NCBI GenBank assembly: GCA_035629175.1 | Contig: DASPIL010000067.1 | Span: 124,001 to 188,000, forward strand | Reading direction: 5' to 3' | Length of the DNA: 64,000 nt | Source: Verrucomicrobiia bacterium | GTDB lineage: Bacteria > Verrucomicrobiota > Verrucomicrobiia > Limisphaerales > DASXHY01 | In this document: positions 35,204 to 40,810 of the stretch, one piece after another | Layout: every line of letters begins with the position of its first letter | How positions within the stretch are numbered: position 1 is the stretch's first letter | Made by a program: the position numbers and the translations under genes | The notes under the pieces: generated by a model | Seen by the model: the letters and a program-made list of their open reading frames with translations, nothing else | Database searches by the model: none | What the model was told of the DNA's origin: nothing

Positions 35204-35640
35204 TTCTCCCTCTCCGCCGCGGAGCGGAGGAGAGGGGGAGCGTTTAGGCATTGGCCCACCGACGGCGGTTTGGCTGGATCAGAGCACCCTCTCCCCCGGC
35301 CCCTCTCCCGCTCCTGCGTCGCAGGCGAGGGGAGAGAGAATAGGCAGCACGATGAATGGAAATTTCAGTTTGCCTTGCCGCCGGCATTCTTCTCCCCCTC
35401 CGCCGCGGAGCGGAGGAGAGGGTTGGGGAGAGGAGGAGCGTCTAGGCAATGGCCAACGGATGAGGGTTTGGCTGGATTCGAACACCCTCTCCCCCGGCCC
35501 CTCTCCCGCTCCTGCGTCGCAGGCGAGGGGAGAGAGAATAGGCAACACGGTGAATGGAAATTTCAGTTTGCCTTGCCGCCGGCATTCTTCTCCCCCTCCG
35601 CCGCGGAGCGGAGGAGAGGGCTGGGGAGAGGAGGAGCGTT
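35204..35640. repeat. Tandem direct repeats, about 2.3 units of 186-198 bp
   Basis: The module CTCTCCGCCGCGGAGCGGAG, an imperfect palindrome, begins near 35210, 35396 and 35594. The intervening ~190 bases, nearly identical in both units, contain a second palindromic module (around 35286-35340 and 35484-35540: a 7-bp stem CTCTCCC/GGGAGAG type around CCTGCG-T-CGCAGG) and a non-palindromic spacer. The third copy ends near 35640, immediately before the DUF559 gene. A similar copy occurs at 40501-40742 and a diverged one at 36173-36310. Confidence 0.9.
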
Positions 35641-35665
35641 TCTGTTTTTTGACGGCAGGAGCTCG

Positions 35666-36103
35666 TCACGCGCAAGGTTCTTGTGGATTTTGAATAATTG
35701 TTCGTGGGTCAGGCGGGAGGTAGCGATTGTTGTGGCGTGCACGATCAACCGAATAAACGCCGGTCCGGTTGTGAAGAGCATTCCATATTTCCAGCAACAC
35801 GCCATCGCGGTTCGTCCGCCACTGTCGATTCCAGAATCGCAGCTCAAGAACTCCTTGTTCAGCCAAGCGTGCGGACCTTCGGGCGTCGTGCGCCATCTTC
35901 CCTGGAACTCCATGCTCGAACCCGTCGAGTTCGACGGACAAGCAAGCCGCCGGGCAATAGAAATCGAGGAAATATTGGAGCATGGGATGTTGTCGGCCGA
36001 ACTTGAATCCTGCGAAGCGGCCCGCTCGAAGAGCCTTCCACAACTCTTTTTCCTCGCGAGTTGCATCGCGCCTCAGTCGCCGTGCTTGCCCCGTCCTCTC
36101 CAT
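35666..36103 (-). CDS. DUF559 endonuclease-like protein (145 aa)
   Basis: The product matches DUF559, a Vsr/restriction-endonuclease-like fold: REEKELWKALRAGRFAGFKFGRQHP, then YFLDFYCPAACLSVELDG with the Asp and Glu of a PD-(D/E)xK type site, followed by DARRSARLAEQGVLELRFWN. The catalytic lysine position is not clear. ATG 36103 is used; a TTG at 36112 adds three residues. It reads against the surrounding cus operon, between repeat blocks on both sides, and has an independent origin. The biological role of DUF559 proteins is not established; a part in DNA repair or in movement of the flanking repeats is a hypothesis. Confidence 0.85.
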   Translation of the reverse strand: MERTGQARRLRRDATREEKELWKALRAGRFAGFKFGRQHPMLQYFLDFYCPAACLSVELDGFEHGVPGKMAHDARRSARLAEQGVLELRFWNRQWRTNRDGVLLEIWNALHNRTGVYSVDRARHNNRYLPPDPRTIIQNPQEPCA

Positions 36104-39300: not shown

Positions 39301-40413
39301 AGCATCGCGGTGTGGGTGGGGATCATCGCGCTGGCCGGGCTTGCGGCGCAAACAGGCACGGTGATGATCATCTACCTCGATGACGCCTTTCACGCGTATC
39401 AGCGCGCCGGCCGCATGAACACGCAGCACGACCTGTTTGAAGCCATAACGTACGGAGCGGTGCAGCGCGTTCGGCCAAAGTTGATGACTGTTGGAACGAC
39501 GATCCTGGGATTGATTCCCGCCATGTGGGCAGCAGGCGCGGGTGCTGAAACGATTCAACGGATTGCAGCGCCAATGATTGGAGGACTGCTGACATCGACG
39601 ATCCTTACCCTCGAAATTGTTCCTGCGATTTACTCACTCTGGCGCGGACGGCAGGTTCAATGGGTGAAAGGACCGAAGCCTCCGCGCAAGACGTGGAAGG
39701 AGTTAAGCGTGGGCTTTGCCGAGTTGGAACGCGGTGAACACGGTTATCCATCACAACCTGCGCCAACGACCTCAGTGCCTGTTGTGAACGACGATGTGCG
39801 CCGCGGTTCAACCATCGGCAAATGGCTCTTGTGGATCAGCGTGGCGGTTGCCGCCGCACTCGCTTTGATATTGTGGCAGCGCAGGAATGCCGCGACGGAA
39901 AAAATCTCGCCTGTGTTTCCGACGAACTCCGTCGAAGCTGCGGCCGCCCCGGCGTTGCCGCCCATGGAACTCAGCGACATGCAGCGTGAAGCGTTTACGT
40001 CGCTGTTGCAGACGGTCGATGCGATCACTTCCAGCCTGGCGGCCGACGATCTGCAGCGATTCAACCGCGTCCAGGCTCAATGGTCCGAAGCCCTGCAACG
40101 GGCGCTCGCCGCTTTTCCCGCGGACCACGCCTGGCATCCGCTGTTGCAGCGCATCGCGGGCGCGCCATTGTCGGCAGCCGGCGACCTCGGGCAGGCGCGC
40201 GAGCAGTTTTTGCCATTCAGCAGCGCGGTAGTGGAATTCGTCGCAATCGTTCGGGAGCAGGACAATCGATCGGCTGGCCTGAAAATCTTTCGCTGTCCCA
40301 TGGCGCCGAAGCCGGGGCGATGGATGCAATTGCAAGGTCCCCTGCGAAACCCCTTCTTTGGTGATGAAATGCTCGAGTGCGGAACCGAAGTGAGCGTCAA
40401 GTCAGCGCTGTGA
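36343..40413 (+). CDS. cusA: CusA/CzcA-type heavy-metal RND pump fused to a C-terminal DUF3347 domain
   Basis: Residues 1-1100 form a complete heavy-metal RND pump: [17 protein letters not shown] (TM1), the early [31 protein letters not shown] motif of the family, the proton-relay Asp in [13 protein letters not shown], and twelve transmembrane helices ending [15 protein letters not shown]. After a normal end near residue 1100 the protein continues with a linker, an additional transmembrane segment ([18 protein letters not shown], about 1165) and a domain with [22 protein letters not shown] and [12 protein letters not shown], which is DUF3347 (usually found on CusB). Total 1356 aa, against about 1040 in E. 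coli. It probably exports Cu(I)/Ag(I). The ATG 36343 start is followed by a second possible Met at residue 10. The gene is separated from cusB by the repeat island. Confidence 0.93.
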   Translation: [1356 protein letters not shown]

Positions 40414-40810
40414 TGTATTGCGTCTCCGACAGGTAATGGGGGAGTGTGAAGGGAAGGACGTGGTAAGGTGCGGGGGATTTGCGGATTGTGGCGTCAGATT
40501 GTTCTCCCTCTCCGCCGCGGAGCGAAGGAGAGTGTTGGGGAGAGGAGGAGCGTTTAGGCATTGGTCGACGGAGGAGGGTTTGGCTGGATCAGAGCACCCT
40601 CTCCCCCCGGCCCCTCTCCCGCTCCTGCGTCGCAGGCGAGGGGAGAGAGAATAGGCAGCACGGTGAATGGAAATTTCAGTTTGCCTTGCTGCCGGCATTC
40701 TTCTCCCTCTCCGCCGCGGAGCGGAGGAGAGGGTTGGGGAGGACCTTCCGAAACTTGCCAGATACGAGTTCTTCGCCGACTATCCTCGCATTCCAGAACG
40801 ATTGTTCGAG
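40414..40810. repeat. Intergenic region containing 1.2 island repeat units
   Basis: 40501-40742 carries one complete unit and the start of the next; it differs from 35210-35390 at only scattered positions over more than 200 bases, including the non-palindromic spacer. The period between module starts (40510 and 40709) is 199. The copy is in the same orientation as those before cusA and occupies the upstream region of the AraC gene. The rest of the interval holds no gene. Confidence 0.85.

Follow-up and report, generated by a model that had tools for sequence, protein, structure and literature searches.

DUF559 nuclease genes paired with dispersed BoxC-type palindromic repeats: a candidate mobile DNA system

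Why does a gene for a predicted DNA-cutting enzyme lie among long repeats in the middle of an efflux operon? This question is raised by a stretch of 64,000 nt from a Verrucomicrobiia bacterium (DASXHY01, Limisphaerales, Verrucomicrobiota; GCA_035629175.1, contig DASPIL010000067.1, positions 124,001-188,000 of the forward strand), the whole of which we call the window. The gene encodes a DUF559 protein, a small, uncharacterised, predicted DNA-cutting enzyme of many bacteria (YcjD in E. coli), and it is surrounded by copies of a palindromic repeat. With a probability of roughly 70%, we read the repeats and the nuclease as one selfish system with autonomous and non-autonomous members, similar to that of repetitive extragenic palindromic (REP) sequences and their REP-associated tyrosine transposases (RAYTs) but run by another enzyme; comparison of sequences is the basis for this reading, including the mobility and cutting that it presumes. 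Enzyme and repeats are probably a previously unrecognised kind of mobile DNA, because intergenic DNA and even genes for housekeeping functions are split by such units.

Two GC-rich hairpins, one inverted relative to the other, make up the repeat. Module A is a hairpin with the tail GGGGAGAGG on its right, module B is its inverted counterpart with the tail CCCTCTCCCC on its left, and all window copies have the order A-spacer-B in one orientation. We read the spacers of these units from 30 genomic loci fetched by motif search, at which 22 A-B units were readable. In 21 units the spacer measured 45-49 nt and had conserved edges (AGGaGcGTtT on the left, ggATCAGAG on the right); in one it measured 550 nt. 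This lone long spacer (35632-36181) has matching edges, AGGAGCGTTT and GGATCCGAG, and contains the DUF559 gene (35666-36103, minus strand). The gene thus lies exactly between an A module that ends at 35631 (35587-35631, plus strand, hairpin plus tail) and an inverted B module that starts at 36182 (36182-36234, plus strand). Gene-bearing and gene-less copies have both ends in common, and therefore an autonomous/non-autonomous relation is suggested.

Four long copies of the composite repeat, with two palindromic modules each, are present in the window. They appear as 198-nt direct-repeat families at 35229, 35427 and 40540 and as a 127-nt core at 35275, 35473, 36172 and 40586. Direct repeats and the spacer reading delimit unit 1 (35204-35335, plus strand), which has a truncated A tail and its B module at 35285-35309, and unit 4 (40501-40742, plus strand), which carries an extra A module and no nuclease gene. 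In unit 2 (35389-35536, plus strand), also placed by direct repeats, the A tail ends at 35433 and a 48-nt spacer leads to the B module from 35482; as a single strand, this A-B unit forms a better fold than its shuffled sequence does (z=-3.29). A truncated remnant of direct-repeat family D4 (36286-36318, plus strand) precedes cusA. Across the 5.4-Mb genome the motif was found at 67 places with at most 2 mismatches, against 31 for a reversed-pattern control, a figure that is so high because the motif is partly self-similar. Together with the folding, this count indicates that the repeat did not arise by chance. A genome-wide search found a single DUF559 gene.

The operon around the repeats and the gene is cusCBA-like according to the open reading frame (ORF) calls of the window. 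On the left is a CusB-like periplasmic adaptor gene (33858-35159, plus strand) and on the right a CusA-like resistance-nodulation-division (RND) pump gene (36343-40413, plus strand). In five relatives from the same taxonomic order, the gap from the cusB stop to the cusA start is ~10-60 bp. In the window the two genes are 1183 bp apart, and the gap is filled by the repeats and the nuclease gene. Since cusB and cusA nearly abut in these relatives, the ~1.2-kb block is best read as an insertion. The original prediction, made from the window alone, had described a leftward DUF559 gene between repeat blocks in a metal-efflux operon, the repeat copies being alike, in the same orientation and composed of two palindromic modules. 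All of this was confirmed.

What kind of enzyme does the gene encode? The ORF spans 35666-36112 on the minus strand, with an ATG start at 36103 and a possible TTG start at 36112, and its product matches Pfam DUF559 (PF04480) with E=1.9e-31. Together with the profile, the conserved D..ExD..H residues assign it to the PD-(D/E)XK fold, EDxHD/Vsr type. The candidate catalytic residues D50, E61, D63 and H67 (numbered from 36112) are invariant in 33 relatives, including those inserted in frame into other proteins. An AlphaFold model (mean pLDDT 82) has Neisseria NGO0050 (3hrl), the homing endonuclease I-Bth0305I (3r3p) and Vsr as fold neighbours, in agreement with the predicted likeness to Vsr, and I-Bth0305I is the closest characterised relative in both fold and sequence. 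That the family has no assigned function was correct only in part: YcjD has been assigned to PD-(D/E)XK (PMC1189080), and the DUF559 protein VsrA of Caulobacter has been linked to DNA damage that arises in the absence of a cytosine methyltransferase (PMC12907096). A role in anti-phage defence was considered and rejected, as there was just a marginal PADLOC match to DpdF (E=0.003).

The repeat itself has known counterparts. Its tail-bearing hairpin corresponds to BoxC of E. coli (CCCTCTCC-loop-GGAGAGGG with the tail GGGGTGAGGG), and the window motif fits the pattern of BoxC and the triplex motif (TM), namely pyrimidine arm, loop, purine arm and purine tail in dispersed copies. Catalogues of BoxC and related repeats go back to the 1990s, and to our knowledge no agent of their spread has been named. 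BoxC is also described as PIT or as an intrastrand triplex motif (TM-ECO) that occurs in more than 260 genomes; the triplex was reported in vitro for the E. coli sequence only, and the same study never found transposases or integrases beside BoxC and does not mention ycjD (PMC4666352). In E. coli, ycjD, a DUF559 gene between sapF and fabI, adjoins BoxC copies. BoxC was counted 34 and 17 times on two E. coli chromosomes, with one or two of the copies at ycjD, and 3359 of 5426 E. coli genomes contain the ycjD region. Among 14 papers that mention DUF559 and 8 that mention ycjD, from a collection without most subscription papers and all preprints, none was found to tie either to BoxC. The original prediction had held that a link between DUF559 and specific repeats would be new; the repeats themselves were already known as BoxC or the triplex motif (PMC4666352).

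Two further observations concern the ycjD site. Directly before ycjD (loci L141/L142, ~2960-3003) there is a perfect inverted repeat that bears no relation to BoxC, CACCTCATTCTGACAA...TTGTCAGAATGAGGTG. UTI89 and 4FM (L144, L145), which have no ycjD, carry efflux genes between sapF and fabI; these are the eef operon (PMC12817139), so that ycjD and BoxC replaced, or were replaced by, an operon.

Does the pairing of DUF559 genes with repeats extend beyond these two bacteria? We surveyed 80 DUF559 loci from many phyla, 79 of which were testable for shared flank 13-mers. The 350-bp flanks on the two sides shared 13-mers at 42 of the 79 loci, compared with 73 of 2354 control positions taken from this DNA (Fisher p=8e-38). 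The density of the BoxC-type tail pattern was 3.1/kb within 100 bp of the DUF559 gene, 1.0/kb at 100-200 bp and ~0.02/kb at 1.6-3.2 kb, a ~150-fold drop. Where the pattern occurred on both sides, the tails pointed inward in 20/25 pairs, which is the arrangement of the A-B unit. In the phylum of the window, Verrucomicrobiota, the motif lay beside 14/23 stand-alone DUF559 genes, 0/7 helicase-fused DUF559 domains and 0/20 stand-alone genes for GIY-YIG nucleases. These comparisons establish the pairing at the level of sequence, and the enrichment of DUF559 genes near the repeat, for which the original prediction had proposed a check, is strong.

The GIY-YIG genes deserve separate mention. In the window's own genome, the C-terminus of a GIY-YIG ORF (L004:2233-2676, that is contig C29:12209-12652) runs into a copy of the window repeat, and a second copy is located ~1.1 kb away. 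GIY-YIG was nevertheless rejected as a second partner of the repeat, given the phylum count of 0/20. Seven of these 20 genes are flanked by other shared repeats, such as GTCATTCTGAGCGCAGCGAAGAATCC (L249, L250, L254, L258, L259, L263, L270), and tRNA 3'-end duplications are seen at L259 and L270. This suggests a parallel repeat-nuclease system with other repeat families.

Where a genome has several DUF559 genes, the repeats are mostly private to each gene. In six such genomes, the upstream and downstream repeats of 19/24 loci were closer to each other than to the flanks of any other DUF559 gene in that genome, and in Caulobacter sp. Root1455 this was true of 5/5 loci. A family in Brevundimonas is dispersed in 33 copies, most of them in inverted doublets whose starts are 115-130 bp apart (reversed control, 0), and a Caulobacter family that counts 6 copies in its own genome has 0 in Brevundimonas. 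The hairpin sequences vary, being GC-rich or of CCCCCTTTGAAAAAGGGGG types; those printed are mostly a pyrimidine arm, loop and purine arm with a purine tail. The DUF559 genes at L203, L204 and L093 lie between hairpins of the CCCCCTTTGAAAAAGGGGG type, which contain AT and form a family unlike BoxC. In Neisseria gonorrhoeae (L143:1860-2900), the DUF559 protein, which is apparently NGO0050 with the solved structure 3hrl, has its own flanking repeats, CCTCTCCCTGTGGGAGAG with the tail TAGAGAGAGGG.

We also found that the units enter genes. At ~31 of 103 strong loci, the unit in its entirety, with its hairpins, lies in frame within a larger host protein encoded on the same strand. The survey counted open frames that span the unit and insertions that break genes would escape it, so this proportion is no evidence of frame preference at insertion. 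Hosts named by Pfam include an HrpA-type helicase, methionine synthase MetH, methionyl- and valyl-tRNA synthetases (metG, valS), Mur ligase, PIG-L deacetylase and the type I restriction proteins HsdR, HsdM and HsdS. Among 41 HrpA relatives most alleles are empty (HF-(G/S)(N/G)AP-VLQVSGRTY), several have DUF559 at exactly that loop, and one has a hairpin alone. Relatives with 93-94% identity across the search region lack the MetH insertion of Stagnimonas; in another lineage a second insertion occupies the same loop, and a third site, in Chloroflexi, is in the B12-binding domain. Overall, MetH is interrupted in frame by DUF559 units at a minimum of three positions in different lineages (L315, L319 vs L069; L073, L105, L123). 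An intein was rejected as an explanation of such interruptions: Pfam scans of 17 interrupted host proteins returned DUF559 and host domains only, with no intein domain (E<=1e-8).

How might such a system spread? In the mechanism we propose, the autonomous unit would consist of hairpin and tail, DUF559 gene, and tail and hairpin, and the non-autonomous unit of this inverted pair of hairpins with a short spacer in between. The nuclease, of the Vsr/EDxHD type, would recognise its cognate hairpin and purine tail when these are single-stranded or extruded, for example on the lagging strand. It would then nick or cut both there and at new sites, after which the unit would be copied into the break by host repair or replication. 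Units that landed in frame in tolerant protein loops would persist because they are still translatable. Hairpin recognition, cutting at hairpins and mobilisation by DUF559 are what we infer from the arrangement of genes and repeats. We lean slightly towards a broader version, according to which DUF559/YcjD proteins are the mobility enzymes of widespread palindromic-repeat elements including BoxC, with gene-bearing units, non-autonomous inverted doublets and routine in-frame entry into genes.

Three other explanations have to be weighed. BoxC-like hairpins might simply destabilise the genome, and DUF559, like other transferred genes, might be caught beside them with no action on the repeats. 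Such a hot spot would agree with the unusual rearrangement of BoxC/TM loci in E. coli (PMC4666352), with the replacement of the eef operon by ycjD (PMC12817139) and with the deletions that occur inside BoxC. We regard it as unlikely, since it does not account for the position of the gene exactly in the spacer of a repeat unit, for the private repeat families on both sides of most DUF559 genes in multi-copy genomes, or for whole units in frame inside hrpA and metH that are repeat-free in relatives; nor would it leave all 20 stand-alone GIY-YIG genes of the phylum without the motif. We likewise find improbable a homing role, in which DUF559, as an EDxHD endonuclease, would cut alleles and copy itself into them, the repeats being passengers or binding sites that it does not spread. 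Homing implies one allele, whereas the insertion sites vary widely among loci. Copies without a gene are scattered through genomes by the dozen, and the surroundings of the gene showed no intron or intein splicing domain. Nevertheless, its closest characterised relative, I-Bth0305I, is the endonuclease of a mobile intron, presence/absence alleles exist at the exact HrpA and MetH sites, phage matches are annotated as homing endonuclease, and in one paper a DUF559 gene is classed among the EDxHD homing endonucleases (PMC9403480).

A housekeeping role, in which DUF559 would be a Vsr-like repair nuclease that trims or mends palindromes or methylation-linked mismatches and its adjacency to repeats would reflect cis-regulation or repeat protection, draws on the fold similarity to Vsr and on the tie of VsrA to cytosine methylation (PMC12907096). 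However, DUF559 is confined to a minority of genomes (in the phylum, 68/289 with any PF04480 match and ~22 with a strong one), and neither insertion into other genes nor private repeat families are expected of a repair enzyme. We consider this role very improbable.

Several observations nonetheless weigh against a single selfish system of nuclease and repeats. The gene-in-spacer anatomy is known from the window genome only, several DUF559 genes have no recognisable flanking repeats, and at the Brevundimonas locus L157 the flanking repeats are direct rather than inverted. UTI89 and other strains without ycjD still have some BoxC copies, and 3/9 repeat-rich genomes of the phylum lack a strong DUF559 match; the phylum comparison of repeat-rich genomes (p=7e-6) is indicative only, because the threshold for repeat-rich (net count >=10) was chosen after the counts had been seen. 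The original prediction had named a spread of the repeat through many genomes that lack DUF559 as counting against it; a few repeat-rich genomes without a detectable DUF559 do occur, alongside the strong enrichment. Neither of two E. coli BoxC polymorphisms compared is a clean insertion, one being a deletion inside BoxC and the other lying in diverged intergenic DNA. At the HrpA, MetH and window sites, where the insertions are old, no clear target-site duplication was found, although empty sites in relatives were seen at all three. The DUF559 copies within one genome are divergent, and therefore no burst of recent gene-carrying copies is seen. Finally, the link of VsrA to methylation-dependent DNA damage allows a repair role (PMC12907096).

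If nuclease and repeats do form one system, palindromic-repeat mobility has evolved on a nuclease fold unrelated to that of RAYTs, and the odd DUF559 domains in HrpA, MetH, tRNA synthetases and restriction enzymes are insertions, not functional fusions. The link of BoxC to DUF559/YcjD supplies a candidate enzyme that can be assayed and makes the known gene-less copies its likely non-autonomous form. As E. coli K-12 has both partners, the question can be tested directly there.

Among known systems, REPtrons (REP/REPIN sequences with their RAYT, TnpA-REP) are close. In both, a nuclease gene is flanked by its own dispersed palindromes, whose tail is unpaired, and inverted doublets occur, and REPtrons likewise pair each enzyme with a repeat family of its own in genomes that hold several (PMC6006769). 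They differ in the enzyme (PD-(D/E)XK/EDxHD versus the HUH/Y1 tyrosine transposase of RAYTs) and in the tails, which are purine-rich GGGGWGAGG here (GGGGAGAGG / GGGGTGAGG) and GTAG/CGTC tags in REP. They differ also in that the DUF559 unit, gene included, appears to insert into new sites as a whole, even in frame within genes. The autonomous/non-autonomous pair foreseen on the REP/RAYT model is therefore supported in part, by the gene in the spacer of one unit, the enrichment, the private families and the empty sites, and the mode of insertion departs from it. BoxC/TM has the same sequence and dispersal, and DUF559/YcjD would be its partner, where no mobility protein was known before. I-Bth0305I and Vsr share the fold and the probable catalytic residues; unlike the former, DUF559 is not borne by an intron or intein and is tied to dispersed palindromes. 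As in pairs of miniature inverted-repeat transposable elements (MITEs) and autonomous transposons, one copy with a gene has the same ends as the short copies without it, but the DUF559 system has neither a DDE nor another known transposase, and no clear target-site duplication was seen. Rickettsia palindromic elements also place palindromic DNA in frame within protein genes; the DUF559 unit differs from them in itself encoding a nuclease domain, which becomes fused in frame with the host protein.

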